Both the position numbers and the translations under genes were made by a program. Under the pieces are notes generated by a model. The model did not search any database and was not told the DNA's origin. It saw nothing but the letters and a program-made list of their open reading frames with translations. This document shows positions 25,380-57,760 of a stretch of DNA of 64,000 nucleotides, piece by piece. The stretch is from NCBI GenBank assembly GCA_030765065.1, contig CM060978.1, forward strand, positions 220,987,498 through 221,051,497. The letters are read 5' to 3'. The stretch comes from Deroplatys truncata (lineage: Eukaryota > Arthropoda > Insecta > Mantodea > Mantidae). How positions within the stretch are numbered: the first letter of the stretch is position 1; each line of letters opens with the position of its first letter.

Positions 25380-25605
25380 AGTGTGTGATTCAGTGTGGTT
25401 TTTTTTTTTTTTTCAATTTTATATGTATGTATGTATATAGTGCGGTGATTGTAAAAAAATAGTTGTTTTCTGGTTGATACTGCAAGTCACGTATACAGAC
25501 AAGGTATTTATCTAGAGAGCATGTACGGTCTTATGACCCATGCGACTGTGTTATGCAATTAATGTAATACTAAATACTTAATAAATACCACCACTACCAC
25601 TACCA

Positions 25606-30510: not shown

Positions 30511-30916
30511 CATAAAGCATCAAACAGAAGTCCGCACACGCAAAATGAATGTGTGCAGTGTTCCATTGTTTGAGAAATAGAAAAACATATTTTTCGACTT
30601 CCATTTATGGACACAATATGGTATACAAATATTATAAACCGCACATAAATCTTTGTAAATTTCCTTACAATTACGATTTCAAGTCATTTTAGCAACTAAT
30701 AAACCACGCATAAATTTTCTTCTTTGTTCCCATCCTTCAAAGGGAAAGACTGGTTGACTGGCTTTCATAATTTATACAGAAATTTCATCATTTTCAAATC
30801 GAAGAATGTAAGACGGAAGGGTTGTAAAAGCGTAAAATTGCTAAGGATTACATAACCACCTAACCTCATTGTTGTAAAAATTTACGAGGGCTATTCAAAA
30901 AGAAGAAACAGACTCT

Positions 30917-33900: not shown

Positions 33901-33946
33901 AGTTCAAAAATTGACCACTGGCCAGTTTTCCTCTCAAACCTTCCAC
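30917..33946 (-). pseudogene. LINE ORF2 pseudogene (copy 2)
   Basis: Fragments in order on the minus strand: endonuclease start (33946-33593, MEGLRGKLASGQF), endonuclease end (33608-33255, IIMGDLNARIG), middle (33159-32548), RT fingers (32599-32306), palm with YADDIVILS (31834-31346), and thumb (31237-30917). At least five frameshifts and a lost C-terminus make it inactive. At the site of the copy 1 frameshift this copy has three T rather than four, giving the ancestral frame. Confidence 0.88.
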
Positions 33947-34001
33947 ATTCCAAAACCCCAGTGACAGCTGGGCATCTTCATTCTATCTGTTTGTTGTTGT
34001 C

Positions 34002-34915
34002 TTACCTCTTACTCCTAGTGAGCTGGTTCTCCCTATCCTTTGTATTCTGCGGGCTGGTTGCACTGACACCCTCCCCCTGCTGACGTTGACTTTGTTTTTG
34101 TCGTCTGGCCTTCTTGGACCCTGCTACCTGCTGTCCCTTCCGGTAGGGGTTTAACCATACTGCCTTCTGGGGCTCGATGCTCTGCAGAAATGCCAACCTC
34201 CTCTCCTTGAATTTCTGCTATCTTCTTGTCGATTTCTTCCAGCTGTGCTTTGGTTCTTATTCGCCCGTTTATTAAGAGTTTGTCAAATTTAATTACTGCA
34301 TGACAACCCTGTGTTTTTACATTTATCATATGGCGATGAAGAAATTATCGTTCTCGCCGGAACTTTTCAGTGAAATCCTCTTATAAACACTCCTGTACCT
34401 TTAAGATACTTACTATCTCAGAGAATGGCGGATTTGCACTTATACGACAGGAGCTTACATACAATAGGCCGCCTGTTGCCTGCTTTACCGACACGGTGCG
34501 CTCTTTCAATATCGTCAGGCATGAGATGAACTCCAATCTGGGCCACAACGTCTAGCACCTTGTTCTCCGTGATGTCCCAACTTTCATTTTCTTCTTCCGT
34601 TAATCCATATATAACAATATTATTTCTTCTTGACTGGTTTTCTAAGTAGTCCACCTTGCCCTCAAGCCACTCACATCTTGCCTCCAACTCCTTCACCCGT
34701 GTCTCAGACTTCTCCAGGGATTACATCATAGAGTTAATAATTCCTAATAGCTCACTGTGACGAACTTTACTTTCCGCGAAATCACTTTTCACTTCACTCC
34801 TCAACTTGTCCAACAGACTTTCAATATTCGCCATATTTGCACAACGCTTCTTGAGTTTACTACTACTCACAGAGCGGACCGGAAACGCGTCTACACCTGA
34901 CCGCTGCTCGAACAA
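34002..34915 (-). pseudogene. LINE ORF1 pseudogene (copy 2)
   Basis: The frame begins around ATG at 34833 (MANIESLLDKLRSEVKSD). A stop follows SMM, then a coiled-coil segment (RVKELEARCEWLEGKVDYLE) and an RRM-like stretch (NIVIYGL, then DDIERAHRVGK and RPIVCKLL). A further stop separates this from the C-terminal part (34329-34033) that matches copy 1. The layout is that of an RNA-binding, trimerising LINE ORF1 protein with two nonsense changes and a frameshift. Confidence 0.8.
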
Positions 34916-40022: not shown

Positions 40023-40548
40023 TCATCTTTAATTATTCGCAGCCATTTAGTTTAATAAATACAGCATCTTCCCAGCATCCTACCTCACGAACAACTCCGT
40101 AGTTTGAAGTACCCCTCCCCAACCCTAGAATGGGCTTCCAAAAATTACATTGTACTTTATTTACATTATCCAACCTCTCCCATCCCCATACTTCACTGTC
40201 GTATAGTAATGAGGACCTAATCATTGCTTCATACATGGTCTGTAATGTTTTTACTTGCATATCTGGTGCTCGGGTCAATATCCTTAATACCTCAGAAAGT
40301 ATCCAATCCCTTTATGTCTTATAAACTCTATGTTCCTGTTCCATTTTCCACCCATATCAAATCTTACTCCTAGTTAATCGAAATGTTTGACATTTTGAAT
40401 TTATTGCTCCCCTTATATCCACTTTTCATGTTGGCTGTACAAATATCCATTTTAAAGGCGACTGTTTTAGTTTTAAGAATATTTACCTCCATACCCCATT
40501 GCCTACAATATCGTCGAAGAGCGTTTAAACCAGACTGCAAACCTTTTG
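40023..40548 (-). mobile_element. LINE copy 3, inverted 5' segment
   Basis: The minus strand matches RT sequence of copy 1 (24170 to about 24704), including the segment LLYDSEVWGWERLDNVNKVQ, with small deletions and frameshifts. At 40549 the sequence switches to plus-strand 3' UTR of the same LINE family (GCATGTACGGTCTTATGACC, copy 1 25519-25538). An inverted 5' segment joined to a sense 3' end is the product of twin priming. Confidence 0.88.
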
Positions 40549-40571
40549 CATGTACGGTCTTATGACCCATG
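40549..40571 (+). mobile_element. LINE copy 3, sense 3' segment (left of the Polinton insertion)
   Basis: GCATGTACGGTCTTATGACC followed by CATG matches the 3' UTR of copy 1. It is cut at CCCATG (40566-40571), which is duplicated at 57633-57638 on the other side of the palindrome. Confidence 0.9.
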
Positions 40572-40574
40572 AGT

Positions 40575-41760
40575 AGGATATATAGGAGAGATCGAGCGCA
40601 GTTTTTTGCGTTTATATGGGAAAGGATAGGGAAAACGAGGCTAGATGCGACGGTTCAAGGAGGAAAATGCGTTTATATGGGCGAGATAGGGAATACGAGG
40701 ACTGACGCTAGGCTAGACAGTGGTAGGAGGGGGAGTGCGCTTTATATGAGAAAGATAGGGAATACGAGGGGAGGTGCTAGGCTAGACAGAGGCTGAGTAG
40801 AGTATAGTTTATATGAGAGGTATAGGAAAACGAGGGGAGGTGTTAGACTAGACAGAGGCTTGAAACGTAGTGCATGGTTTATATGAGTGCTATAGGAAAA
40901 CGAGGAGAGGAGTTAGACTAGACAGAGGTCGAGGAGCAGAGTATGGTTTATGTGAGAGATATAGGAAAACGAGGAAAGGTGTTAGGCTAGACAGAAGTCG
41001 AGGAGTAGAGTATGGTTTATATGAGAGGTATAGGAACAGGAGAAGAGGTGTTAGGCTAGACAGGTAGTGTTGCAGTAGGAATATGGACTTATATACAGGA
41101 GAGATAGGGAATACCAGGGCTGATGCTAGGCTAGTCAGATGCTAAAGGAGGGAGGGATATGCTTTATACGAGAGAGATAGGGAATACAAGGAAAGATGCT
41201 ATACTAAACAGGACTTGAAGGGTAGAATATGAGCGATTAGCGAACCGAGGAGAGGTGCTAGTATAGGAGTTTTTAATGATGGAGTAGGCGTTTATATGCG
41301 AGAGATAGGGAATACGAGGGTCGATGCTAGGCTAGACAGTGGTAGGAGGGGGAGTGCGCTTTATATGAGAAAGATAGGGAATACGAGGGGAGGTGCTAGT
41401 CTAGACATGGTTTGAGGATTAGAGTATACGTTTATATGGGAGGTATAGGAAAACGAGGGGAGGTGTTAGGCTAGACAGATGCTGAGTAATGTATGGTTTA
41501 TATGAGTGGTATAGGAAAACGAGGAGAGGAGTTAGACTAGACAGAGGTCGAGGAGCAGAGTATGGTTTATGTGAGAGTCATGGGTAAACGAGAGAGGCGT
41601 TAGGCTAGACAGAGCTAGAGGAATAGAGTATGGTTTATATGAGAGGTATAGGAACAGGAGAAGAGGTGTTAGGCTAGACAGGTAGTGTAGCAGTAGGAAT
41701 ATGGACTTATATACAGGAGAGATAGGGAATAGGAGGGCTAGACTTGAAAGCGACTTTAGA
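40575..41760 (+). repeat. 66-bp tandem repeat array, left end of the palindrome
   Basis: About 17 units of roughly 64-72 bp repeat the core TATAGGAAAACGAGGGGAGG then TTAGGCTAGACAG and TATGGTTTATATGAGAG. Because the common unit is 66 bp, divisible by three, short frames such as 40870-41067 stay open with a 22-residue period; I consider them spurious. The array is subterminal, where adenovirus- and Polinton-type elements bear replication signals. Confidence 0.9.
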
Positions 41761-41836
41761 CGTGAACTTAGTGGAAAACTGTTTCATGTCAATGTTAGAA
41801 CGCTAATTCTAGACATGCCCATCACGTAACCTATTC

Positions 41837-42020
41837 AGGGAAAAGGTGACTCGTTCAGGGGAAAAAGGTGACTGCTCAGGGAAAAAGGAGGCCCACAAAG
41901 GGAAAAAGTTGACTAGCAAAGGGAAAAACGTGACCAGCAAAGGGAAAAATGTCACCAGCAAAGGGAAAAAAGGCGACCACCAAAGGGAAAAAGGTGACCT
42001 GCAACGGGAAAAGCTAACCC
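41837..42020 (+). repeat. 20-22 bp tandem repeat, left arm
   Basis: Nine units of AGGGAAAAAGGTGACCAGCA type, each 20-22 bp with small changes. They mark the inner border of the 66-bp array. Confidence 0.92.
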
Positions 42021-42025
42021 ACTAA

Positions 42026-43200
42026 CACTAACAGGTAAGTAATTCAGGTAGTATCACAGGAGGCTAGATTCCAGGGTTGGGTATAGCATAGTTTCATATT
42101 TCAAGGTAATTCAGAGGGTATCGTAGGTATTTAGGATAATTCAAGTAACATAGGTGTTTAGAGTAATTAAGCAAGCATTACAGGAGGGTAGGTTCCAGGG
42201 GTTGGTTATAACCTAGCTTCGTATTTCACAGATAGTTCAGGTAATATCGTAAGTATTTGAGGTAATCGACAGAGCTTCACAGATATTATTGATAATTTCG
42301 ATCAGAGATTTGTATCACAGCTATTTAAGGTAAATGCAGATGATTCAGGTTGTATCAATGGTATTTGAGTCATTTTAACAGGTAATTCAGATAGCATCAC
42401 AGGTGCTCGTGCTAATTTAGAGCAGGAATTCGTATCAGAGCTAGTTAAGGTAATTTCACATGATTCGGGTAGTATCACAGGTATTTAAATCATTTTCATA
42501 GCCAATTCAGCTAGTATCGTGAGCATTTAAGCTAATTCAGCTAGTATCACAGGAGGCTAGATTCCAGAGGCTAACTGCATCATAGCTATGCATGATTTCA
42601 CAGCTAATTCAGCTAGTATCGTAGGTATTTAGGCTAATTCAGGTAGTATCACAGGAGGCTAGATTCCAGGGTTGGGTATAGCATAGTTTCATATTTCAAG
42701 GTAATTCAGAGGGTATCGTAGGTATTTAGGTTAATTCAAGTAACATAGATGCTTAGAGTAATTAAGCAAGCATTACAGGAGGGTAGGTTCCAGGGGTTGG
42801 TTATAGCCTAGTTTCGTATTTTACAGATAGTTCAGGTAATATCATAAGTATTTGGATAATCAGCATAGTTTCACAGATGCTCGTAATAATTTCGATCAGA
42901 GATTTTGTATCACGGCTATTTAAGGTAAATGCAGCTGATTCAGGTTGTATCAATGGTATTTGAGTCATTTTAATAGGCAATTCTGATAGTATCACAGGTG
43001 CTCGTACTAATTTAGAGCAGGAATTCGTATCTGAGCTATTTAATGTAATTTCACACGATTCGGATAGTATCACAGGTATTTAAGTCATTTTAACAGGCAA
43101 TTCAACTAGTATCACAGGTACTCATGGTAATATAGAGAGTAATTCGATTATAAAACTTTTCTCATCCAACGTTACAACAATTTATATACTTTTTTCTAAA
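42026..43200 (+). repeat. 600-bp duplication built from short GTATCACAGGTATTTA units, left arm
   Basis: A block starting AATTCAGGTAGTATCACAGG then GCTAGATTCCAGGGTTGGG at about 42050 recurs at about 42640-42660, giving two copies of roughly 610 bp. Each block is itself made of degenerate 30-50 bp units with AATTCAG and GTATCACAGG steps. No coding sequence is supported. Confidence 0.8.
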
Positions 43201-43299
43201 TCTTACAAACTTATTATATGTTAAACACTTATTGTACAATGCGGAGAGGGATAAACTGCATATTGGTTCACAAATTGAAAAGCTTTACGTCAACATACC

Positions 43300-43305
43300 T
43301 TTATT
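43300..43305 (-). promoter_or_regulatory. Poly(A) signal of the left PolB gene
   Basis: AATAAA on the minus strand, about 200 bases after the left polymerase stop. It is the mirror of 54899-54904. Confidence 0.6.
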
Positions 43306-43508
43306 TTAGTTCGTTATAGATGTCTCTCCCCTTTTATCTAGGCTTGAGACTAGCACTAGGATTGCTCCTAATGGCAGGGTTACCACCTTCCCTTCCATCT
43401 TCTTCTTTCTTCATCAGGCGCCAGCTATCTGCATATACAGCACACAGATACCTTCTTTTTTAAGATTGTAGACTCACTAGAAAATCTTTATCTTTAACTT
43501 ACATTCTT

Positions 43509-46500
43509 TTAAGCACTGTTTGTAATGGCGTAATGTCCATACGCATATGTTGTTATCCCGTCCTCAGCAATAATTCTTTTATCATCAAACGGAGTCAATG
43601 CAATTTTATTCACTTGTACTGTAGCAAGGGCATGCTTTCGTGATAGGATCAGATTCATAGGTGTTCTGATGATTTCACTGGTTTTAAGACAGTCTGTATA
43701 GCTGTCAAACGAAATGTACTGCTTAATAGCGCTACGTTTTATACCTTTAATCTTTTTTATCATTGACCCTTGAATATCTAAGGCATACATCTTAGGACGT
43801 AGTCCAACAAAGCGTAGGATGATTTTGCTATTAGCCTCATCTTTAAATTTTCCCAATACCTTCTTGTTCTGAGTAGAGTAACATATATGGTTGGCAGGGT
43901 AATCAGCTGTATCGAGATGTTCAAGAAAACGTAGCTTGTCCTGGTACACATCTTCAGTTCTTACACGATGAATGAACGAATCAGTGTCCATATACATAAG
44001 CTTCAGGTTTTCAGCTCCATAATAAGGCAACAAAACGTCGTAATGATAATTATACATTAATGTCTTGGAGATGTCCAACACACTCATACCAATGTATATA
44101 GGCTTGTTGAACACAATCTGACGAGAGGCCATATGTACAGCAGCTAGATTATCAGCATATATCGTCCTGTCGATAAACGTAGGCTTGGCGATCAGCTTCT
44201 CTAGAGTTTTTTCATTGGTCACCAGTCGTATATCCATACGATTACGCAGGTTCTCCATAGTTTTTCCAAACATAGCGTTGTTAAAGAGTTTGTAGAGATC
44301 CTTCTCGAAATCATTTGCAGCTTGTTGTCGTAGCCTGTTGTTAAATTCCACATAAGGTTTCAACCACTGAGACTGTCGGAATTGTAGCACACGATGGATT
44401 TTTGTTAGTCGTAGTCCATGACTAAGAGCTTGCTTCAAAGCCATGTAATGCACTACATACTTCTTTCGAGGTCCAAGATGAGGTATCAGTTTCTTTGTAG
44501 ATGATTCCAATGGTTTCATACACTCTGGCAGGAAAGGTAGATCGTTGTGTAGATCGTGAAGTTCTGCAGGATACTCGATGTCGACTTCTAATATGTACCC
44601 ATGAGGATCATCTTCTTGTAGTGTTTCTAAGTTGATTTCTTCAGGTGACACCCACTGAAATCCACCAAAAGGAAGGGCGTGACACATTGCCCACCCATAT
44701 TGGTTATTTGCGTCCTCGTATGTGATAAATTGGGTTGGTCTCGTCGGATCAAACTTCTCCATATAAGTGTTATTAGCCTCAGCATACCGATGAGAAACTT
44801 GGCATAAACCTCCTCTTATACCTGATTCCACCATGAGTAGTTGATCATAATCTTGTAACAGTTCCAGCTTAATTCCAGTATACAGCAACATGGCGTCCCA
44901 TGTAAGACCTGGAGAGGTAAAATAATGGGCAGGATCAACTTTGTGTGTTTTAAGGGTTTGCTCTCTGAACGTCTCAAAGACGTCAGCTAGAAGAAGTACA
45001 TCCGAAGTTAAGTAGAGATCGCTGTACTCTCCCAGGTTTCTCACATTAAACAGCTCCCATACATTTCTAGCATGATCGTAGTCAGCATCAGTAATTTCTT
45101 CTTCATTTAATCTATTGTAGAAGGAGTCCTTAGGAGGCAAGCAGCTCTCGTTCAGGGCATCCCATGACGTAACAAAATCATATGCAAATACACCCTTACG
45201 GGTCATCAACTTCAATTTGTCTTCTCCAAAGTACTTTAGCGTTTCAGGATACGAGGTTAGATTTTTTACCAACTTATCCAAGCTTGTACTGAGGAATCGG
45301 AAGCTATCCACAAATCGAAGCTTTATATCTCCTACATACTTGGTGAATGAGATATAGCTTTCTTCAGAGTTAGGAATTACCTCCACACGTTCACTTGTAC
45401 AACCCAGCTCCTTAACAATGAAATGAGAGTCATATCCGCTAAGGTTATGCATGAAGACTGGTATATATTTAGGTGATTTACAGGCTAAATTACATTCATT
45501 ATGAAGACTTCCACGATATTCACCGCTGATGTGATCATGGTCGCGTACTTTATAGTTCTCTTCTGTAAAGGGTTTTCTACACAAGTAGCATGTCGTAGAA
45601 GACTCGAAATCCTTTTGCTGTTGATCCGTAAGTTTCAGAGGCTTAGCAGATTTGTATATATTACCAATCATTTTTGCAAGAGATGTAAGGTACAGCATAA
45701 ACGTCTGAGCAGCATCAGCACCACGATACACATAGGGATGCTTAGGAAGATCAGTTTCGAGATGTTCAACACTGGATGTAGGTTTCACGTAAACACAGAA
45801 GCTCATTGGTGTGTGCTCTTGATAAGGTGTTGTATAGGAAGTTTCAGGATTGGGTGTACACGTATGGCATGGAGTGAGAATACTCTCAAAATCCGCATAG
45901 ATGACATAAGGTACTTTCAGCATCCTCTCAACATTTTTAAACTGTACAATTGATTTCTCCTTGGTAGGCATAACTACCCTTGCAACACCATGTTGAATAC
46001 AGACGGCTGCATGTTCTTGTAGTTTTTCCTGTCCACTTCGTCCATATCGATCATCAAAATGTGTAAAGCAGCGCTTACAAGTATAAACCCGTCCATTATG
46101 GTTAGTTTTCTGGCGTCGAACGAGTTTCTCAAAATTCCTTATATACACGTAGTGATGTTTTCCACTGCTATCATTCAATAGTAGCAGGTCGCGATGTTCA
46201 GGTAGTTCAATATCAGCAACCTTTATCGGATACACTTCATGCTTCTCATCCAACCCGAAAACGTTAATAGACATATTGTTAAACTTCTCAAATTTAGGTA
46301 TTTGAGAAAGTGGAGTAGGGTAGGAAACACAGCTGAAGTCGTACTTGTCTTGAAGTTGTTTGTATTTGCTCACACGTTGCGCATCCTTCCCTATGAATTT
46401 AGCTAATATAGAGTACATGAAACATTTATCGTCGGTAAAGTTCTGAATGTTTATACACGCTTCTTTAGCTCCGACAGATGACGGTAGTGGTATGTAGCTA

Positions 46501-47057
46501 CTTCCTCGTAACGGGTTGTACTTGTTGATACGAAGTCGAACTCCTTCCACAGCAAGCAAAGCCCAGCTGCTACCCTTAAGCTGAGACTCCTCCATTTCAG
46601 TCACCAATTTCTTGAATTTCACTTCCATCGTTGACTCCAGATCAGTTTCCAGGAAAACAGCTTGATTCCGTGTTTTAAATGTTTTGTCACAGGTTTCTCC
46701 AATACTGTTAACAAATCGACACTCAGCCAGCAGATTAATTTTAACACTCTTATGAATGCTAAGCTCTTTATGCACAGCCAGGATTATACGTTGTTTTGCC
46801 TCTTGCAGATACATATTTAGGTCCTTAGCTGATTCGCATCGTATAAAATACGATTTCAATCGTCCTTCGAACGAAGTTTCGTATTCTTTCATATCACAGT
46901 CCTCCATTGTTGACAGTAACTGATGTTTAGTTGGCTCCAATCCTCTTTTCTTCTGAGGGCTGCTTAGTTCACATATATCTTCGTGTCGCTGTCCCTTATA
47001 ACAATCTTTGAAGGTTACATTACAATGTTTACATTTGAAGAGCTTCTTGCAGCTCAT
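43509..47057 (-). CDS. polB: Family-B (protein-primed type) DNA polymerase, left copy
   Basis: 1182 residues, replicating DNA by family knowledge. Visible parts: C2HC finger (C9-x2-C12, H25, C29); second C2HC finger (C327-x2-C330, H349, C353); exonuclease motif I D389-F-E391; an inserted endonuclease-VII/HNH-like module (C490-x2-C493, DHDH 506-509, H519, C522, C526); exonuclease II (HNLSGYD 537-543); exonuclease III (Y682, D686); polymerase A (D782-ANNQYG); polymerase B (K923, N927, G931-K932); polymerase C (D1024-T-D1026). All catalytic residues are present, so the domain is intact. Transcription runs from the centre of the palindrome outward. It differs from the right copy at residue 39 (Gly instead of Arg). 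The frame also extends 35 codons upstream to an ATG at 47162, broken by TGA (47084-47082); ATG 47057 is the first start after that stop. Confidence 0.92.
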   Translation of the reverse strand: MSCKKLFKCKHCNVTFKDCYKGQRHEDICELSSPQKKRGLEPTKHQLLSTMEDCDMKEYETSFEGRLKSYFIRCESAKDLNMYLQEAKQRIILAVHKELSIHKSVKINLLAECRFVNSIGETCDKTFKTRNQAVFLETDLESTMEVKFKKLVTEMEESQLKGSSWALLAVEGVRLRINKYNPLRGSSYIPLPSSVGAKEACINIQNFTDDKCFMYSILAKFIGKDAQRVSKYKQLQDKYDFSCVSYPTPLSQIPKFEKFNNMSINVFGLDEKHEVYPIKVADIELPEHRDLLLLNDSSGKHHYVYIRNFEKLVRRQKTNHNGRVYTCKRCFTHFDDRYGRSGQEKLQEHAAVCIQHGVARVVMPTKEKSIVQFKNVERMLKVPYVIYADFESILTPCHTCTPNPETSYTTPYQEHTPMSFCVYVKPTSSVEHLETDLPKHPYVYRGADAAQTFMLYLTSLAKMIGNIYKSAKPLKLTDQQQKDFESSTTCYLCRKPFTEENYKVRDHDHISGEYRGSLHNECNLACKSPKYIPVFMHNLSGYDSHFIVKELGCTSERVEVIPNSEESYISFTKYVGDIKLRFVDSFRFLSTSLDKLVKNLTSYPETLKYFGEDKLKLMTRKGVFAYDFVTSWDALNESCLPPKDSFYNRLNEEEITDADYDHARNVWELFNVRNLGEYSDLYLTSDVLLLADVFETFREQTLKTHKVDPAHYFTSPGLTWDAMLLYTGIKLELLQDYDQLLMVESGIRGGLCQVSHRYAEANNTYMEKFDPTRPTQFITYEDANNQYGWAMCHALPFGGFQWVSPEEINLETLQEDDPHGYILEVDIEYPAELHDLHNDLPFLPECMKPLESSTKKLIPHLGPRKKYVVHYMALKQALSHGLRLTKIHRVLQFRQSQWLKPYVEFNNRLRQQAANDFEKDLYKLFNNAMFGKTMENLRNRMDIRLVTNEKTLEKLIAKPTFIDRTIYADNLAAVHMASRQIVFNKPIYIGMSVLDISKTLMYNYHYDVLLPYYGAENLKLMYMDTDSFIHRVRTEDVYQDKLRFLEHLDTADYPANHICYSTQNKKVLGKFKDEANSKIILRFVGLRPKMYALDIQGSMIKKIKGIKRSAIKQYISFDSYTDCLKTSEIIRTPMNLILSRKHALATVQVNKIALTPFDDKRIIAEDGITTYAYGHYAITNSA

Positions 47058-47162
47058 CTCGTGTCTTCTCTTGTCATAACCTCAGAGGAACTTCTTCCCA
47101 CATTTTCCGCATGCATATCCAGTAGCGCTTGGAATAATATCCTTATACGCTGAGTTATTCAT
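47058..47162 (-). other. Upstream zinc-finger extension of left PolB with in-frame TGA
   Basis: In frame with the polymerase, 35 codons start at ATG 47162-47160. They encode a finger-like C-x2-C (ACGKCGKKF) whose His and last Cys (RRHEMSC) straddle the annotated start. Codon 27 is TGA (47084-47082). The same layout occurs at 51042-51146. Confidence 0.75.
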
Positions 47163-47295
47163 CTTTATTCTTGATGTAATAACGTATTAATCACTGATCA
47201 ATGAAATGTAGACCTCTTCACCTTGACACCACTTTAGAAAACTGATTATTCTTGGAGAGAACACGATGTTAACACCTCAAGACTAATTAGCACAA

Positions 47296-47328
47296 TGAAG
47301 TCCAATGCCCTAGATCACCATATTTATA
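47296..47328 (-). promoter_or_regulatory. Predicted TATA promoter of left PolB
   Basis: TATAAATA at 47328-47321 is followed 32 bases later by an initiator-like TTCATTG (A at 47296), about 130 bases before the upstream ATG. Mirror of 50876-50908. Confidence 0.55.
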
Positions 47329-47821
47329 GAGGGAGCACGAACCTTTTAGATCAATCATAAACTCGCTCCATAACCACCTGTATATGATCGCTCAACGTGT
47401 ACTAACCCCCCAGCCATATAACCTCAAGTCTAGAGACAGGATGTTTATGACGTCACACCCAGAGACAGGATGTCTGGCAGCATCAAACACGTTTAAACTC
47501 GTCTCATAACTACCTGCTTATGCTGTCACACCAGCAAGAGAAGTATTCCCACACGCTCATTCAGACATATATTTCAAATTCAAGCCCACCACCACCATCA
47601 CCACCTATTGTACCAAGGATAATTCAAGCTGTATTATCACAATACTTAAAAGTAAAAACTTAAAAGGAAACCTAGAAGATTTTCCCCCTTATTTACTTAA
47701 TTATTTCATGTTTTTATTCCCTTTTCAATTCTTCCTTTCCATCTTCTCACACAAAGACCATTACATTTCACTACAATCATGAGAAAAGCAATTTTTCCAG
47801 AGTTACACAGATTCTAAGCTT

Positions 47822-48938
47822 CTAAATCGAACCCGGTAATACTTTTAATAAATGTATTTTAGCTCCCCAATATCAGCATCTACCATTTAATCTTTACTCG
47901 AACCTGATATGATCCATAAGCTTGAAGATATATGAAATCACCCTTCGGGATTCGATCTGAGTACTTTAAAGTAATATTTGTCACGATAACGATATTTAAG
48001 GACTAGATACTCTTGTTTGCGTTTACCTTGACATGTTTATCTAAATTAAATTACGAGTTATTAAATTTTTGCAAGTAAATTTCATTGAATCGGTATTCGA
48101 ACCCAGAACACCAGGAACAAGATAATTTATAATATTAGTCTGACATGTTAAACAAAGTTGTATGCAGTTACATCATCGATCTAAGTGATATATTCTAGTG
48201 TACAGAGGAAAATTAAGAAAGTCATTAAAAAATCGGGAATCGAACCAAGCACAACTGATTGGCAATTATATACAGCATTAATCACCCAGTACAGAACCTA
48301 TCAATCATGCTTTGCTGCACTCCTCTACCTCACTTAGTTCCCGAGATAATGAAAATTTTAAAATTAAGGATCGAACCCAGGACGTCAGGTATCTAGTTAC
48401 ACATTTACAAGATACTACCTAATAACATAAACGCAATAAAGTTTATTTGGCGTCTTTATCTTAATTGGTTTAGGAGTTATTAAATTTATAAGTAAATTCC
48501 ATCGAATCAGTATTCGAACCCAGAACACCAAGAACAAAATAATTTATAATATGAGTTTGGTATGCTTAAAGGTGCTGTATGTAGTTACAGCATCAATCTA
48601 ACTGATATTTTCTAGAGTATAGAGTAAAATTAAGGAAGTCATTAAAAAATCGGGATTCGAACTAGAGGCAACCGATTAAAAATTATATACAGTATTAATT
48701 ACACATTATAACAGCTATCAAACATGCTTTGGTCCATTCCTCTAGCTTTCTTAGTTTCCGAGATAATAAAATTTTTAAAATTAAGGATCGAACCCTGGAC
48801 ACCAGGTACCAACATATACATCCACAAGAAACTACCTAATGACATTAATGTAATAAAGTTTATTTGGCGTCTTCATCTTAATTAGTCTCCGAGTTATTAG
48901 AAGATGAATTTGCATTCACTCCTAGGATTCGAACCCAG
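47822..48938 (-). repeat. B-box/T-arm-like motif array, left arm
   Basis: Mirror image of the array at 49266-50382. It holds ten TTCGA-centred motifs reading outward on the minus strand. The spacing and description are given under the right-arm entry. Confidence 0.75.
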
Positions 48939-49067
48939 GCATCCCGGGCAACTTGGAACAATACCCTAATGACGCGGCGTATTCCAAAGAATTGATTAGT
49001 TTTTATTCCATTGTTCTATCTCTTGTCATTCAGGAGATATGAGCGATTAAACAGTAGAAATAAAATG

Positions 49068-49136
49068 AGAGAGCTGGCCCACAGAGAGATGCCGACATCT
49101 GATAAAGTTCTTTGATCTATGCCGGCAAGCTCCGCC
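49068..49136. other. Non-palindromic centre of the element
   Basis: These 69 bases separate the arms. The last paired bases are AAAATG ending at 49067 and CATTTT starting at 49137. The spacer is not self-complementary in register, though GCCGACAT (49091) and ATGCCGGC (49119) could pair loosely out of register. It would be the loop if the element folded or replicated as a hairpin. Confidence 0.85.
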
Positions 49137-49265
49137 CATTTTATTTCTACTGTTTAATCGCTTATATCTCCTGAATGACAAGAGATAGAACAATGGGATA
49201 AAAACTAATCAATTCTTTGGAATACGCCGCGTCATTAGGGTATTGTTCCAAGTTGCCCGGGATGC

Positions 49266-50382
49266 CTGGGTTCGAATCCTAGGAGTGAATGCAAATTCAT
49301 CTTCTAATAACTCGGAGACTAATTAAGATGAAGACGCCAAATAAACTTTATTACATTAATGTCATTAGGTAGTTTCTTGTGGATGTATATTTTGGTACCT
49401 GGTGTCCAGGGTTCGATCCTTAATTTTAAAAATTTTATTATCTCGGAAACTAAGAAAGCTAGAGGAATGGACCAAAGCATGTTTGATAGCTGTTATAATG
49501 TGTAATTAATACTGTATATAATTTTTAATCGGTTGCCTCTAGTTCGAATCCCGATTTTTTAATGACTTCCTTAATTTTACTCTATACTCTAGAAAATATC
49601 AGTTAGATTGATGCTGTAACTACATACAGCACCTTTAAGCATACCAAACTCATATTATAAATTATTTTGTTCTTGGTGTTCTGGGTTCGAATACTGATTC
49701 GATGGAATTTACTTATAAATTTAATAACTCCTAAACCAATTAAGATAAAGACGCCAAATAAACTTTATTGCGTTTATGTTATTAGGTAGTATCTTGTAAA
49801 TGTGTAACTAGATACCTGACGTCCTGGGTTCGATCCTTAATTTTAAAATTTTCATTATCTCGGGAACTAAGTGAGGTAGAGGAGTGCAGCAAAGCATGAT
49901 TGATAGGTTCTGTACTGGGTGATTAATGCTGTATATAATTGCCAATCAGTTGTGCTTGGTTCGATTCCCGATTTTTTAATGACTTTCTTAATTTTCCTCT
50001 GTACACTAGAATATATCACTTAGATCGATGATGTAACTGCATACAACTTTGTTTAACATGTCAGACTAATATTATAAATTATCTTGTTCCTGGTGTTCTG
50101 GGTTCGAATACCGATTCAATGAAATTTACTTGCAAAAATTTAATAACTCGTAATTTAATTTAGATAAACATGTCAAGGTAAACGCAAACAAGAGTATCTA
50201 GTCCTTAAATATCGTTATCGTGACAAATATTACTTTAAAGTACTCAGATCGAATCCCGAAGGGTGATTTCATATATCTTCAAGCTTATGGATCATATCAG
50301 GTTCGAGTAAAGATTAAATGGTAGATGCTGATATTGGGGAGCTAAAATACATTTATTAAAAGTATTACCGGGTTCGATTTAG
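49266..50382 (+). repeat. Array of tRNA T-arm/Pol III B-box-like motifs, right arm
   Basis: TTCGA-centred motifs occur at 49271, 49412, 49543, 49686, 49829, 49960, 50103, 50302 and 50373, plus ATCGAATCCC at 50248. The first intervals are 141, 131, 143, 143, 131, 143 and 145 bp. A three-motif block of about 416 bp is thus duplicated (49271-49686 and 49686-50103). The first copy, GGTTCGAATCC, is a perfect B box, and CTGGG/CCTAG pair as a complete 5-bp T stem around TTCGAAT (49266-49282). Later copies keep the loop but lose stem pairing. Upstream of several lies a GTCATTAGGTA-like segment that could stand for a decayed A box. No complete cloverleaf was assembled, so these are tRNA-like, not called tRNA genes. 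Confidence 0.75.
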
Positions 50383-50875
50383 AAGCTTAGAATCTGTGTA
50401 ACTCTGGAAAAATTGCTTTTCTCATGATTGTAGTGAAATGTAATGGTCTTTGTGTGAGAAGATGGAAAGGAAGAATTGAAAAGGGAATAAAAACATGAAA
50501 TAATTAAGTAAATAAGGGGGAAAATCTTCTAGGTTTCCTTTTAAGCTTTTACTTTTAAGTATTGTGATAATACAGCTTGAATTATCCTTGGTACAATAGG
50601 TGGTGATGGTGGTGGTGGGCTTGAATTTGAAATATATGTCTGAATGAGCGTGTGGGAATACTTCTCTTGCTGGTGTGACAGCATAAGCAGGTAGTTATGA
50701 GACGAGTTTAAACGTGTTTGATGCTGCCAGACATCCTGTCTCTGGGTGTGACGTCATAAACATCCTGTCTCTAGACTTGAGGTTATATGGCTGGGGGGTT
50801 AGTACACGTTGAGCGATCATATACAGGTGGTTATGGAGCGAGTTTATGATTGATCTAAAAGGTTCGTGCTCCCTC

Positions 50876-50908
50876 TATAAATATGGTGATCTAGGGCATT
50901 GGACTTCA
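50876..50908 (+). promoter_or_regulatory. Predicted TATA promoter of right PolB
   Basis: TATAAATA (50876-50883) is followed by CTTCATTG with a possible start A at 50908, 32 bases downstream of the first T. The upstream ATG lies at 51042. Confidence 0.55.
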
Positions 50909-51041
50909 TTGTGCTAATTAGTCTTGAGGTGTTAACATCGTGTTCTCTCCAAGAATAATCAGTTTTCTAAAGTGGTGTCAAGGTGAAGAGGTCTACATTT
51001 CATTGATCAGTGATTAATACGTTATTACATCAAGAATAAAG

Positions 51042-51146
51042 ATGAATAACTCAGCGTATAAGGATATTATTCCAAGCGCTACTGGATATGCATGCGGAAA
51101 ATGTGGGAAGAAGTTCCTCTGAGGTTATGACAAGAGAAGACACGAG
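51042..51146 (+). other. Upstream zinc-finger extension of right PolB with in-frame TGA
   Basis: ATG at 51042 opens a frame continuous with the polymerase except for TGA at 51120-51122 (codon 27). The residues around it (YACGKCGKKF before, GYDKRRHEMSC after) form a C2HC-type finger, parallel to the next finger starting C9-x2-C12. The stop therefore interrupts a plausible domain. A CGA-to-TGA change would be the simplest origin. Confidence 0.75.
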
Positions 51147-54100
51147 ATGAGCTGCAAGAAGCTCTTCAAATGTAAACATTGTAATGTAACCTTCAAAGAT
51201 TGTTATAAGGGACAGCGACACGAAGATATATGTGAACTAAGCAGCCCTCAGAAGAAAAGAAGATTGGAGCCAACTAAACATCAGTTACTGTCAACAATGG
51301 AGGACTGTGATATGAAAGAATACGAAACTTCGTTCGAAGGACGATTGAAATCGTATTTTATACGATGCGAATCAGCTAAGGACCTAAATATGTATCTGCA
51401 AGAGGCAAAACAACGTATAATCCTGGCTGTGCATAAAGAGCTTAGCATTCATAAGAGTGTTAAAATTAATCTGCTGGCTGAGTGTCGATTTGTTAACAGT
51501 ATTGGAGAAACCTGTGACAAAACATTTAAAACACGGAATCAAGCTGTTTTCCTGGAAACTGATCTGGAGTCAACGATGGAAGTGAAATTCAAGAAATTGG
51601 TGACTGAAATGGAGGAGTCTCAGCTTAAGGGTAGCAGCTGGGCTTTGCTTGCTGTGGAAGGAGTTCGACTTCGTATCAACAAGTACAACCCGTTACGAGG
51701 AAGTAGCTACATACCACTACCGTCATCTGTCGGAGCTAAAGAAGCGTGTATAAACATTCAGAACTTTACCGACGATAAATGTTTCATGTACTCTATATTA
51801 GCTAAATTCATAGGGAAGGATGCGCAACGTGTGAGCAAATACAAACAACTTCAAGACAAGTACGACTTCAGCTGTGTTTCCTACCCTACTCCACTTTCTC
51901 AAATACCTAAATTTGAGAAGTTTAACAATATGTCTATTAACGTTTTCGGGTTGGATGAGAAGCATGAAGTGTATCCGATAAAGGTTGCTGATATTGAACT
52001 ACCTGAACATCGCGACCTGCTACTATTGAATGATAGCAGTGGAAAACATCACTACGTGTATATAAGGAATTTTGAGAAACTCGTTCGACGCCAGAAAACT
52101 AACCATAATGGACGGGTTTATACTTGTAAGCGCTGCTTTACACATTTTGATGATCGATATGGACGAAGTGGACAGGAAAAACTACAAGAACATGCAGCCG
52201 TCTGTATTCAACATGGTGTTGCAAGGGTAGTTATGCCTACCAAGGAGAAATCAATTGTACAGTTTAAAAATGTTGAGAGGATGCTGAAAGTACCTTATGT
52301 CATCTATGCGGATTTTGAGAGTATTCTCACTCCATGCCATACGTGTACACCCAATCCTGAAACTTCCTATACAACACCTTATCAAGAGCACACACCAATG
52401 AGCTTCTGTGTTTACGTGAAACCTACATCCAGTGTTGAACATCTCGAAACTGATCTTCCTAAGCATCCCTATGTGTATCGTGGTGCTGATGCTGCTCAGA
52501 CGTTTATGCTGTACCTTACATCTCTTGCAAAAATGATTGGTAATATATACAAATCTGCTAAGCCTCTGAAACTTACGGATCAACAGCAAAAGGATTTCGA
52601 GTCTTCTACGACATGCTACTTGTGTAGAAAACCCTTTACAGAAGAGAACTATAAAGTACGCGACCATGATCACATCAGCGGTGAATATCGTGGAAGTCTT
52701 CATAATGAATGTAATTTAGCCTGTAAATCACCTAAATATATACCAGTCTTCATGCATAACCTTAGCGGATATGACTCTCATTTCATTGTTAAGGAGCTGG
52801 GTTGTACAAGTGAACGTGTGGAGGTAATTCCTAACTCTGAAGAAAGCTATATCTCATTCACCAAGTATGTAGGAGATATAAAGCTTCGATTTGTGGATAG
52901 CTTCCGATTCCTCAGTACAAGCTTGGATAAGTTGGTAAAAAATCTAACCTCGTATCCTGAAACGCTAAAGTACTTTGGAGAAGACAAATTGAAGTTGATG
53001 ACCCGTAAGGGTGTATTTGCATATGATTTTGTTACGTCATGGGATGCCCTGAACGAGAGCTGCTTGCCTCCTAAGGACTCCTTCTACAATAGATTAAATG
53101 AAGAAGAAATTACTGATGCTGACTACGATCATGCTAGAAATGTATGGGAGCTGTTTAATGTGAGAAACCTGGGAGAGTACAGCGATCTCTACTTAACTTC
53201 GGATGTACTTCTTCTAGCTGACGTCTTTGAGACGTTCAGAGAGCAAACCCTTAAAACACACAAAGTTGATCCTGCCCATTATTTTACCTCTCCAGGTCTT
53301 ACATGGGACGCCATGTTGCTGTATACTGGAATTAAGCTGGAACTGTTACAAGATTATGATCAACTACTCATGGTGGAATCAGGTATAAGAGGAGGTTTAT
53401 GCCAAGTTTCTCATCGGTATGCTGAGGCTAATAACACTTATATGGAGAAGTTTGATCCGACGAGACCAACCCAATTTATCACATACGAGGACGCAAATAA
53501 CCAATATGGGTGGGCAATGTGTCACGCCCTTCCTTTTGGTGGATTTCAGTGGGTGTCACCTGAAGAAATCAACTTAGAAACACTACAAGAAGATGATCCT
53601 CATGGGTACATATTAGAAGTCGACATCGAGTATCCTGCAGAACTTCACGATCTACACAACGATCTACCTTTCCTGCCAGAGTGTATGAAACCATTGGAAT
53701 CATCTACAAAGAAACTGATACCTCATCTTGGACCTCGAAAGAAGTATGTAGTGCATTACATGGCTTTGAAGCAAGCTCTTAGTCATGGACTACGACTAAC
53801 AAAAATCCATCGTGTGCTACAATTCCGACAGTCTCAGTGGTTGAAACCTTATGTGGAATTTAACAACAGGCTACGACAACAAGCTGCAAATGATTTCGAG
53901 AAGGATCTCTACAAACTCTTTAACAACGCTATGTTTGGAAAAACTATGGAGAACCTGCGTAATCGTATGGATATACGACTGGTGACCAATGAAAAAACTC
54001 TAGAGAAGCTGATCGCCAAGCCTACGTTTATCGACAGGACGATATATGCTGATAATCTAGCTGCTGTACATATGGCCTCTCGTCAGATTGTGTTCAACAA

Positions 54101-54695
54101 GCCTATATACATTGGTATGAGTGTGTTGGACATCTCCAAGACATTAATGTATAACTATCATTACGACGTTTTGTTGCCTTATTATGGAGCTGAAAACCTG
54201 AAGCTTATGTATATGGACACTGATTCGTTCATTCATCGTGTAAGAACTGAAGATGTGTACCAGGACAAGCTACGTTTTCTTGAACATCTCGATACAGCTG
54301 ATTACCCTGCCAACCATATATGTTACTCTACTCAGAACAAGAAGGTATTGGGAAAATTTAAAGATGAGGCTAATAGCAAAATCATCCTACGCTTTGTTGG
54401 ACTACGTCCTAAGATGTATGCCTTAGATATTCAAGGGTCAATGATAAAAAAGATTAAAGGTATAAAACGTAGCGCTATTAAGCAGTACATTTCGTTTGAC
54501 AGCTATACAGACTGTCTTAAAACCAGTGAAATCATCAGAACACCTATGAATCTGATCCTATCACGAAAGCATGCCCTTGCTACAGTACAAGTGAATAAAA
54601 TTGCATTGACTCCGTTTGATGATAAAAGAATTATTGCTGAGGACGGGATAACAACATATGCGTATGGACATTACGCCATTACAAACAGTGCTTAA
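51147..54695 (+). CDS. polB: Family-B (protein-primed type) DNA polymerase, right copy
   Basis: This is the same 1182-residue protein as the left copy except Arg at residue 39. Exonuclease and polymerase catalytic motifs are all intact (D389/E391, N538-D543, Y682/D686, D782, K923/N927/G931, D1024/D1026). The inserted DHDH-type zinc module at 490-526 sits between exonuclease motifs I and II. Length fits Polinton, adintovirus and linear-plasmid polymerases (about 1000-1250 residues). It is read outward from the palindrome centre and followed by AATAAA at 54899. The long antisense frame opposite residues 369-519 is a shadow. Codon use is intact across the gene, so decay since insertion is minimal. 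Confidence 0.92.
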   Translation: MSCKKLFKCKHCNVTFKDCYKGQRHEDICELSSPQKKRRLEPTKHQLLSTMEDCDMKEYETSFEGRLKSYFIRCESAKDLNMYLQEAKQRIILAVHKELSIHKSVKINLLAECRFVNSIGETCDKTFKTRNQAVFLETDLESTMEVKFKKLVTEMEESQLKGSSWALLAVEGVRLRINKYNPLRGSSYIPLPSSVGAKEACINIQNFTDDKCFMYSILAKFIGKDAQRVSKYKQLQDKYDFSCVSYPTPLSQIPKFEKFNNMSINVFGLDEKHEVYPIKVADIELPEHRDLLLLNDSSGKHHYVYIRNFEKLVRRQKTNHNGRVYTCKRCFTHFDDRYGRSGQEKLQEHAAVCIQHGVARVVMPTKEKSIVQFKNVERMLKVPYVIYADFESILTPCHTCTPNPETSYTTPYQEHTPMSFCVYVKPTSSVEHLETDLPKHPYVYRGADAAQTFMLYLTSLAKMIGNIYKSAKPLKLTDQQQKDFESSTTCYLCRKPFTEENYKVRDHDHISGEYRGSLHNECNLACKSPKYIPVFMHNLSGYDSHFIVKELGCTSERVEVIPNSEESYISFTKYVGDIKLRFVDSFRFLSTSLDKLVKNLTSYPETLKYFGEDKLKLMTRKGVFAYDFVTSWDALNESCLPPKDSFYNRLNEEEITDADYDHARNVWELFNVRNLGEYSDLYLTSDVLLLADVFETFREQTLKTHKVDPAHYFTSPGLTWDAMLLYTGIKLELLQDYDQLLMVESGIRGGLCQVSHRYAEANNTYMEKFDPTRPTQFITYEDANNQYGWAMCHALPFGGFQWVSPEEINLETLQEDDPHGYILEVDIEYPAELHDLHNDLPFLPECMKPLESSTKKLIPHLGPRKKYVVHYMALKQALSHGLRLTKIHRVLQFRQSQWLKPYVEFNNRLRQQAANDFEKDLYKLFNNAMFGKTMENLRNRMDIRLVTNEKTLEKLIAKPTFIDRTIYADNLAAVHMASRQIVFNKPIYIGMSVLDISKTLMYNYHYDVLLPYYGAENLKLMYMDTDSFIHRVRTEDVYQDKLRFLEHLDTADYPANHICYSTQNKKVLGKFKDEANSKIILRFVGLRPKMYALDIQGSMIKKIKGIKRSAIKQYISFDSYTDCLKTSEIIRTPMNLILSRKHALATVQVNKIALTPFDDKRIIAEDGITTYAYGHYAITNSA

Positions 54696-54898
54696 AAGAA
54701 TGTAAGTTAAAGATAAAGATTTTCTAGTGAGTCTACAATCTTAAAAAAGAAGGTATCTGTGTGCTGTATATGCAGATAGCTGGCGCCTGATGAAGAAAGA
54801 AGAAGATGGAAGGGAAGGTGGTAACCCTGCCATTAGGAGCAATCCTAGTGCTAGTCTCAAGCCTAGATAAAAGGGGAGAGACATCTATAACGAACTAA

Positions 54899-54904
54899 AA
54901 TAAA
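54899..54904 (+). promoter_or_regulatory. Poly(A) signal of the right PolB gene
   Basis: AATAAA about 200 bases after the stop at 54695. It is the first canonical hexamer found downstream. Confidence 0.6.
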
Positions 54905-55003
54905 GGTATGTTGACGTAAAGCTTTTCAATTTGTGAACCAATATGCAGTTTATCCCTCTCCGCATTGTACAATAAGTGTTTAACATATAATAAGTTTGTA
55001 AGA

Positions 55004-56178
55004 TTTAGAAAAAAGTATATAAATTGTTGTAACGTTGGATGAGAAAAGTTTTATAATCGAATTACTCTCTATATTACCATGAGTACCTGTGATACTAGTT
55101 GAATTGCCTGTTAAAATGACTTAAATACCTGTGATACTATCCGAATCGTGTGAAATTACATTAAATAGCTCAGATACGAATTCCTGCTCTAAATTAGTAC
55201 GAGCACCTGTGATACTATCAGAATTGCCTATTAAAATGACTCAAATACCATTGATACAACCTGAATCAGCTGCATTTACCTTAAATAGCCGTGATACAAA
55301 ATCTCTGATCGAAATTATTACGAGCATCTGTGAAACTATGCTGATTATCCAAATACTTATGATATTACCTGAACTATCTGTAAAATACGAAACTAGGCTA
55401 TAACCAACCCCTGGAACCTACCCTCCTGTAATGCTTGCTTAATTACTCTAAGCATCTATGTTACTTGAATTAACCTAAATACCTACGATACCCTCTGAAT
55501 TACCTTGAAATATGAAACTATGCTATACCCAACCCTGGAATCTAGCCTCCTGTGATACTACCTGAATTAGCCTAAATACCTACGATACTAGCTGAATTAG
55601 CTGTGAAATCATGCATAGCTATGATGCAGTTAGCCTCTGGAATCTAGCCTCCTGTGATACTAGCTGAATTAGCTTAAATGCTCACGATACTAGCTGAATT
55701 GGCTATGAAAATGATTTAAATACCTGTGATACTACCCGAATCATGTGAAATTACCTTAACTAGCTCTGATACGAATTCCTGCTCTAAATTAGCACGAGCA
55801 CCTGTGATGCTATCTGAATTACCTGTTAAAATGACTCAAATACCATTGATACAACCTGAATCATCTGCATTTACCTTAAATAGCTGTGATACAAATCTCT
55901 GATCGAAATTATCAATAATATCTGTGAAGCTCTGTCGATTACCTCAAATACTTACGATATTACCTGAACTATCTGTGAAATACGAAGCTAGGTTATAACC
56001 AACCCCTGGAACCTACCCTCCTGTAATGCTTGCTTAATTACTCTAAACACCTATGTTACTTGAATTATCCTAAATACCTACGATACCCTCTGAATTACCT
56101 TGAAATATGAAACTATGCTATACCCAACCCTGGAATCTAGCCTCCTGTGATACTACCTGAATTACTTACCTGTTAGTG
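55004..56178 (-). repeat. 600-bp duplication of short units, right arm
   Basis: Mirror of 42026-43200: two blocks with CCTGTGATACTACCTGAATT and CCTGGAATCTAGCCTCCTG steps, about 610 bp apart. Confidence 0.8.
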
Positions 56179-56183
56179 TTAGT

Positions 56184-56367
56184 GGGTTAGCTTTTCCCGT
56201 TGCAGGTCACCTTTTTCCCTTTGGTGGTCGCCTTTTTTCCCTTTGCTGGTGACATTTTTCCCTTTGCTGGTCACGTTTTTCCCTTTGCTAGTCAACTTTT
56301 TCCCTTTGTGGGCCTCCTTTTTCCCTGAGCAGTCACCTTTTTCCCCTGAACGAGTCACCTTTTCCCT
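56184..56367 (-). repeat. 20-22 bp tandem repeat, right arm
   Basis: Mirror of 41837-42020: nine units of the TTTTTCCCTTTGCTGGTCAC type. Confidence 0.92.
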
Positions 56368-56443
56368 GAATAGGTTACGTGATGGGCATGTCTAGAATTA
56401 GCGTTCTAACATTGACATGAAACAGTTTTCCACTAAGTTCACG

Positions 56444-57629
56444 TCTAAAGTCGCTTTCAAGTCTAGCCCTCCTATTCCCTATCTCTCCTGTATATAAGTC
56501 CATATTCCTACTGCTACACTACCTGTCTAGCCTAACACCTCTTCTCCTGTTCCTATACCTCTCATATAAACCATACTCTATTCCTCTAGCTCTGTCTAGC
56601 CTAACGCCTCTCTCGTTTACCCATGACTCTCACATAAACCATACTCTGCTCCTCGACCTCTGTCTAGTCTAACTCCTCTCCTCGTTTTCCTATACCACTC
56701 ATATAAACCATACATTACTCAGCATCTGTCTAGCCTAACACCTCCCCTCGTTTTCCTATACCTCCCATATAAACGTATACTCTAATCCTCAAACCATGTC
56801 TAGACTAGCACCTCCCCTCGTATTCCCTATCTTTCTCATATAAAGCGCACTCCCCCTCCTACCACTGTCTAGCCTAGCATCGACCCTCGTATTCCCTATC
56901 TCTCGCATATAAACGCCTACTCCATCATTAAAAACTCCTATACTAGCACCTCTCCTCGGTTCGCTAATCGCTCATATTCTACCCTTCAAGTCCTGTTTAG
57001 TATAGCATCTTTCCTTGTATTCCCTATCTCTCTCGTATAAAGCATATCCCTCCCTCCTTTAGCATCTGACTAGCCTAGCATCAGCCCTGGTATTCCCTAT
57101 CTCTCCTGTATATAAGTCCATATTCCTACTGCAACACTACCTGTCTAGCCTAACACCTCTTCTCCTGTTCCTATACCTCTCATATAAACCATACTCTACT
57201 CCTCGACTTCTGTCTAGCCTAACACCTTTCCTCGTTTTCCTATATCTCTCACATAAACCATACTCTGCTCCTCGACCTCTGTCTAGTCTAACTCCTCTCC
57301 TCGTTTTCCTATAGCACTCATATAAACCATGCACTACGTTTCAAGCCTCTGTCTAGTCTAACACCTCCCCTCGTTTTCCTATACCTCTCATATAAACTAT
57401 ACTCTACTCAGCCTCTGTCTAGCCTAGCACCTCCCCTCGTATTCCCTATCTTTCTCATATAAAGCGCACTCCCCCTCCTACCACTGTCTAGCCTAGCGTC
57501 AGTCCTCGTATTCCCTATCTCGCCCATATAAACGCATTTTCCTCCTTGAACCGTCGCATCTAGCCTCGTTTTCCCTATCCTTTCCCATATAAACGCAAAA
57601 AACTGCGCTCGATCTCTCCTATATATCCT
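56444..57629 (-). repeat. 66-bp tandem repeat array, right end of the palindrome
   Basis: Mirror of 40575-41760: about 17 units with the core CCTCCCCTCGTTTTCCTATA and CTGTCTAGCCTAACACC. The innermost repeated frame (57137-57334, -) is the mirror of 40870-41067. Confidence 0.9.
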
Positions 57630-57632
57630 ACT

Positions 57633-57681
57633 CCCATGCGACTGTGTTATGCAATTAATGTAATACTAAGTACTTAATAAA

Positions 57682-57758
<77 letters not shown>

Positions 57759-57760
57759 GT
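57633..57760 (+). mobile_element. LINE copy 3, 3' end and (ACT)n tail (right of the Polinton insertion)
   Basis: After the repeated CCCATG, the sequence GCGACTGTGTTATGCAATTA onward continues the LINE 3' UTR exactly as in copy 1 (25542-25585). It ends AATAAATACT and runs into about 25 ACT units (57682-57757). The target duplication TAAATAGCA follows at 57761-57769. Confidence 0.9.
57682..57757. repeat. (ACT)n microsatellite
   Basis: About 25 perfect trinucleotide units form the tail of LINE copy 3. The tail of copy 1 has only a few degenerate units, so this tract expanded during or after insertion. Confidence 0.95.

Follow-up and report, generated by a model that had tools for sequence, protein, structure and literature searches.

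Is a 17-kb palindrome that encodes DNA polymerase B (PolB) twice a solitary accident, or is it the form in which an element lives and spreads? The question is raised by a 64,000-nucleotide stretch of the genome of the mantis Deroplatys truncata (contig CM060978.1, positions 220,987,498 to 221,051,497 of the forward strand; hereafter the window), in which a near-perfect palindrome of 17,061 bp occupies positions 40572-57632. The palindrome is not a one-off but the shape usually taken by a mobile, Polinton-derived family of about 225 copies, and the two arms of an element evolve in concert while the elements diverge. We hold it to be reasonably probable that the family is a multi-copy, integration-dependent Polinton (Maverick) derivative, palindromic in its standard form, that would replicate as a hairpin by protein priming, re-template one arm from the other and receive its integrase in trans. 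The element is laid out as follows, in window positions.

40572..49067, + strand: left arm, 8,496 bp, outer end AGTAGGATATATAGG
49068..49136, no strand: central spacer, 69 bp, with a core conserved in other copies
49137..57632, - strand: right arm, inverted relative to the left and differing from it at 6 positions
40671..41681, no strand: 69-bp tandem array in the outer left arm
56523..57463, no strand: 69-bp tandem array in the outer right arm
48036..48899, no strand: 417-bp repeat, 2.1 copies, inner left arm
49305..50168, no strand: 417-bp repeat, 2.1 copies, inner right arm

The arms, each of 8,496 bp, differ by six substitutions (99.93% identity), and hence are not identical. Both outer ends read AGTAGGATATATAGG, with the termini AGTAGG and CCTACT. 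The inverted-repeat tool returned 40571-49067 and 49137-57633, which were trimmed by one chance-matching flank base per arm, and this analysis confirmed what a first, sequence-only reading of the locus had proposed, namely that the whole element is one inverted repeat with a 69-bp centre and a 6-bp duplication. Compared with shuffled sequences, the spacer and its edges fold somewhat better (z -2.8), and the outer arms also hold shorter arrays beside the 69-bp tandem array. In the inner arms, at 48900-49300, stretches resembling tRNA B boxes are apparent by eye, perhaps marking a tRNA-derived repeat; ARAGORN found no tRNA for these stretches.

A mobile family of palindromes

The window's own genome (4.29 Gb, 818 contigs) has 229 forward and 225 reverse occurrences of a 27-bp end motif, allowing at most 2 mismatches, as compared with 0 and 0 for a reversed control; the motif is not enriched in the remainder of the 64-kb window. 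Among the 100 of these 454 places that were listed, 94 form 47 pairs and 6 are without a partner. The spacing is 14.4-21.3 kb in 42 pairs, with 18 within 100 bp of 17,061, and 7.9-10.8 kb in the remaining 5. With a 1.5-kb piece of PolB as the query there were 3,660 first-look candidates, 40 of which were scored, all given as 100% identical. These 40 places represent 26 elements, 14 present as inverted pairs, including that of the window, and 12 as single places. Beside 10 of the 12 single places there is a second, inverted arm that reaches into PolB, and PolB is present in two inverted places in 24 of the 26 located elements. The other two are L032, whose centre is palindromic but whose second arm has a deletion, and L029, which breaks off beside repeat DNA 41 bp before the centre. 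All 17 elements for which both ends were read are flanked by perfect 6-bp duplications, each of a different sequence, one of them being within a TA repeat and so saying little. C12_134, with only its left end, is outside the 17, and three one-sided places with no end where expected (L040, L041 and L044) were left uncounted. Different sites and 6-bp duplications document that the family is mobile.

Nineteen centres were read: that of the window, those of 6 of the other 13 pairs, and those of the 12 single places. The same spacer is recognizable at 17, the exceptions being C4_57 and L029, and with about 225 copies this conserved spacer indicates that the palindromic form is passed on and maintained. 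In the sequence-only reading, the sign of a collapsed or misjoined assembly was to be one arm continued by other Polinton genes; this arrangement was not seen at any of the 19, of which L029 is cut off near its centre next to repeat DNA. In C4_57 (C4:57.24 Mb), the junction of the arms is about 1.05 kb from where the PolB open reading frame (ORF) begins, versus a usual distance of about 2 kb. Only 2 nt separate the arms there, versus the usual 69, at a short imperfect inverted repeat, and the arms differ at 1 of 1,078 positions. Chance is unlikely to have produced a deletion so symmetric about the centre; fold-back and self-copying of a strand would explain the new centre.

Shorter members of the family also occur. 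L088 and L091 (7.9 and 8.5 kb) are palindromes that share the spacer and ends of the family. Their similarity to the arms (93-95%) stops at 1,279 bp on both sides, and they seem to be derivatives without PolB, parasites of the parasite. L089 (8.4 kb) has a single arm in its 3.1-kb middle, and the middle of a further short element, L090, has an internal deletion. A parental Polinton sharing these arms was looked for in the longest element listed, L092 (21.3 kb), and 8 kb from its middle proved to be the same, ordinary palindrome. The search for other elements with these ends, proposed in the sequence-only reading, yielded many copies.

The host site of the window element is a repeat copy, and the insertion is genuine, as documented by the following features.

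40566..40571, no strand: target site duplication, left copy, CCCATG
57633..57638, no strand: target site duplication, right copy, CCCATG
40027..40547, - strand: host LINE (long interspersed nuclear element) fragment, inverted, adjoining the insertion on the left, 90% to 24167-24702
25519..25603, + strand: uninterrupted paralogue of the insertion site, an empty site with a single CCCATG, from flank comparison

The left LINE fragment is followed by 24 bp whose continuation, beyond the element, is the right flank. When joined with one CCCATG, the flanks match 25519-25603 uninterruptedly, at 95% over 85 bp, and the two flanks and both junctions therefore belong to one place. The empty site bears out the earlier argument that differing flanks bracketed by a duplication are not a hairpin artefact. 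The host repeat itself (40027-40571 plus 57633-57760) resembles a LINE whose 5′-part is inverted and whose tail is (TAC)n, as twin priming would leave it. Elsewhere in the window, two LINE reverse-transcriptase copies face each other (21470-25292 and 30866-34381; about 95-98% alike in pieces), and a 209-amino-acid frame at 6596-7225 looks, by eye, like a fragment of a mariner-type transposase.

The polymerase gene and selection on it

Each arm has one long ORF of 1,190 codons, with its 3′-end pointing outward, that encodes a PolB of the protein-primed type, as is characteristic of Polintons/Mavericks.

43509..47081, - strand: PolB ORF of the left arm, 1,190 codons, stop to stop
51123..54695, + strand: PolB ORF of the right arm, with an endonuclease VII domain near residues 494-533 and a phi29-like exonuclease/polymerase at ~389-1163
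51120..51122, + strand: in-frame stop just upstream of the right PolB ORF, absent from the 20 other copies compared
47082..47084, - strand: the same in-frame stop in the left arm, from arm comparison

The only other ORF of at least 120 amino acids in each arm has 154 and is antisense to the PolB ORF. Nothing in Pfam, rve included, matched the spacer or the non-ORF part of the right arm at E<=1 in a six-frame search, and this result also covers the left arm, which has the same sequence but for 6 bases. Integrase, ATPase, protease and capsid genes were not found in the element (ORFs of at least 120 amino acids; Pfam at E<=1), nor was there a match to a transposase. This ORF survey and Pfam search support both the initial observation that DNA polymerase B is all that is encoded, twice, and the reading of the element as a minimal, Polinton-derived replicon. 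A sequence search of the PDB gave nothing useful. Homologues include the PolB of a Ladona dragonfly adintovirus (49% identical), and, by eye, motifs of Cys and His like those of OTU domains seem to be present in the PolB alignment. As judged by eye from the alignment, the in-frame stop falls in a segment that is an N-terminal zinc finger in homologues.

PolB was compared with 20 other copies, one arm each, out of the 25 other located elements. The open length is the same in 18, one has a 3-nt deletion and one a frameshift, and at the position of the window copy's stop all 20 read a sense codon. Of the variants present in at least two of the 21 copies, 28 are synonymous and 8 nonsynonymous (ratio 0.076; the binomial p of 5e-13 is rough as the copies share ancestry), whereas the singletons, 12 synonymous and 43 nonsynonymous, are near neutral; all variants together number 40 and 51. 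As judged from these substitutions, PolB is under purifying selection, with the pattern of a gene needed during the spread of the family and released after insertion. The window copy has four private variants in the PolB region, two in both arms and two in the left arm only.

Matched arms and how they might arise

Arms were compared over the inner 2 kb in 16 elements, C4_57 being outside this comparison as its centre is different. Within-element differences number 1-17 in 14 of the 16 (median 3.5), as compared with a median of 30 between elements, the two ranges overlapping since the smallest between-element distance is 6 in 1,818. In a FastTree phylogeny the two arms are sisters in 14 of 16 elements, weakly so for C3_179 and not for C13_47 and C12_134. 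In an IQ-TREE phylogeny, run without C12_134 as a deletion in one arm spoils its comparison, they are sisters in 14 of 15, with support of 93-100 in 12, 63 in C3_179 and no value for the window pair; the exception is C16_665. The differences are not evenly distributed. In 14 elements, with C12_134 and C16_665 set apart for a deletion in one arm, 38 of 68 differences lie within 500 bp of the centre, where 17 are expected, and the outer ends are clean in 15 of 17 elements (6 differences in 5,701 bp).

The replication mechanism that we infer has the following steps. PolB would start at the AGTAGG termini by protein priming, with its N-terminal part probably serving as the terminal protein. Strand displacement would then free one strand, which would fold back on itself as an 8.5-kb hairpin closed by a 69-nt loop, and incomplete 3′-ends would re-prime on the facing arm, so that in each round the outer part of one arm is rewritten from the other before completion around the loop. 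The product would be inserted by an integrase acting in trans, of which ordinary Polintons are perhaps the source, and a truncated strand that folded back at a new short inverted repeat could found a new palindrome. Re-priming from the 3′-side would rewrite the outer arm always and the inner arm seldom, which fits the gradient of arm differences. The sequence-only reading had likened the element to the symmetric defective genomes of protein-primed viruses. The matched arms and the new centre of C4_57 would fit this likeness; a one-off defective form does not agree with about 225 copies. More tentatively, the palindrome may be the life strategy of a pared-down, self-synthesizing transposon, the genome being in effect one 8.5-kb arm, present as a hairpin-capable inverted dimer whose arms repair or rewrite each other in each round, with PolB in cis, integrase from ordinary Polintons and an endonuclease VII domain that perhaps acts on the hairpin or cruciform junction.

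Several observations weigh against replicative matching of the arms. The arms of C12_134 and C16_665 compare poorly (78 of 590 and 38 of 1,553 positions differ), which we put down to deletions in one arm, and the arms of C16:273, with 17 differences in 2 kb, are further apart than the closest pair of elements (6 in 1,818). Nine of the differences near the centre are within 10 bp of a hand-set edge, without which 29 of 59 are near the centre, and the excess there could have other causes. The outer ends are unlike in C10_107 (76 of 437, with gaps) and C10_114 (15 of 480). The chief rival is that the family moves as an ordinary element with long terminal inverted repeats (TIRs), the arms being matched after insertion by chromosomal gene conversion, as in the palindromes of sex chromosomes. 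Conversion would match the arms in most elements too, and it could account for the stop of the window copy, absent from 20 other copies and present in both of its arms, and for the division of its four private variants into two shared by both arms and two confined to the left. By itself, however, it leaves unexplained why nearly all copies read are palindromes and how the almost spacer-free centre of C4_57 arose, and conversion limited by edges should leave differences at both ends of an arm, whereas the outer ends are mostly clean. We consider this alternative unlikely as the whole account, although conversion may act as well.

Another rival is a dead-end, non-autonomous deletion derivative, mobilized wholly in trans with PolB included. 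The absence of a detectable integrase gene from the element, the existence of L088 and L091 with no PolB in their middle, and the other Polinton PolBs in the genome all accord with it. The stop before the PolB ORF in both arms of the window copy does so too and, like the roughness of the selection p-value, counts against the favoured reading. The shared variants, 28 synonymous versus 8 nonsynonymous, nevertheless indicate that PolB mattered during the spread, and a dead-end derivative appears quite improbable. Single-molecule reads are known to give rise to artefactual long palindromes, and palindromic reads or a collapsed element could in principle have produced the assembled structure. With different flanks and matching 6-bp duplications in 17 of 17 elements, a paralogous empty site, a spacer conserved among copies and non-identical arms, we give an assembly or read-through artefact almost no credence. 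Within the favoured reading of a palindromic Polinton derivative, the putative integration in trans is supported by the 6-bp duplication, and the PolBs of integrase-bearing elements are distant; this too weighs against it.

Ordinary Polintons, known relatives and meaning

An IMG/VR search with the single PolB protein found nothing, and one with the PolB alignment found one relative, L001, an ordinary element with an integrase, an A32-type ATPase and a PolB at 37%; no inverted repeat of at least 40 bp was found in the 15,750 of its 17,398 bases examined. With the L001 integrase as the query, 126 places were scored out of 9,142 candidates in the window's genome. The best of these has an E of 3e-20; most are in open frames of 309, 320 or 339 amino acids and 8 have a stop inside, consistent with several ordinary, probably recent, Polinton families. 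Four integrase loci were read. L093 was tested for the rve domain, which was found (5e-10), and L094, L095 and L096 have PolB sequence beside the integrase. The PolBs of the integrase loci, including those around L093, are only 34-40% identical to that of the palindromic element, and the integrase-bearing elements are therefore other families. The end of an integrase-bearing Polinton was sought in L099, where 2.5 kb held no recognizable end. It is plausible that integrase is supplied in trans, perhaps by these ordinary Polintons. The earlier proposal that the element keeps its polymerase and borrows integration proteins thus agrees with selection on PolB and with the integrase ORFs elsewhere, the action of such integrases on these ends being putative.

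L093, together with L097 and L098 (C72:155800-169900), is part of an inverted repeat whose arms, 99.4% alike over 3.3 kb, are about 390 bp apart. These arms carry the integrase (rve, and by eye a chromodomain-like part) along with other ORFs of Polinton type, and PolB lies beyond them on either side; the repeat may record a second palindrome that formed independently, in an ordinary Polinton. A 'segmented' Polinton, with the integrase on a palindrome of its own, was considered for this locus and rejected: outward, the resemblance between the two sides is confined to pieces of about 0.4 kb (96% and 79%), and PolB is present on each. The inverted integrase pair was set aside as a rearranged ordinary Polinton.

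The following comparisons draw on excerpts of the papers cited. Intact vertebrate Mavericks have 12.7-24.6 kb, TIRs of 46-1,447 bp, 6-bp duplications and ends of (AGT)2 or (AG)3 (PMC8097293), and the PolB of Sf Mavericks also has a predicted endonuclease VII domain, with weak E-values (PMC5803895). The palindromic element shares the 6-bp target duplication (17 of 17), and its AGTAGG matches (AGT)2, a motif described for vertebrates, at 5 of 6 positions; in contrast to the vertebrate TIRs, its arms are 8.5 kb long with the gene inside them, and integrase, ATPase, protease and capsid were not found. Adintoviruses are characterized by a PolB with an OTU-like N-terminal domain, a hexon and a chromodomain integrase (PMC11071296), whereas the palindromic element has no hexon-sized ORF and no integrase was found. 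Bidnaviruses are small replicons with a Polinton-type PolB, TIRs and parvovirus-type capsid and helicase genes (PMC4061559). In the palindromic element, unlike in these viruses with their capsid and helicase, PolB is the sole gene detected. We know of no palindromic genome among bidnaviruses.

Foldback/Galileo elements are recognized by a P- or Mutator-type transposase and a matching duplication length. Galileo copies of the 2-TIR type are almost entirely TIR, some with tandem repeats in the TIRs, and have no transposase sequence according to the excerpts; copies average 1.7-2.2 kb, and Galileo belongs to the P superfamily, with 7-bp target sequences (PMC3573991). The element resembles them in being almost wholly TIR with tandem repeats in its arms, and differs in having a PolB under apparent selection in each arm and 6-bp duplications. 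Fold-back (copy-back) derivatives have a symmetric genome with two like halves, as here, where both halves would stem from one. A mitochondrial deletion derivative of the kalilo plasmid in Neurospora reportedly forms hairpin and duplex DNA, to go by a 1992 title of Vierula and Bertrand in the reference list of PMC11071308. The kalilo plasmid is linear and protein-primed; the element here belongs to an integrated, spreading family. A palindromic or PolB-only Polinton family is not described in the titles and abstract openings listed for the open literature, a scope outside which subscription journals and Repbase lie. For the replication of such elements, a single-stranded, TIR-paired intermediate has been proposed as a model (PMC4046053).

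A family stripped to PolB and its termini separates what replication needs in cis, PolB and the ends, from what can be supplied in trans, the integrase and capsid, and makes the hairpin intermediate a structure that can be sought in native DNA. In addition, it is a natural case of a gene that is doubled and kept in concert by palindromy.

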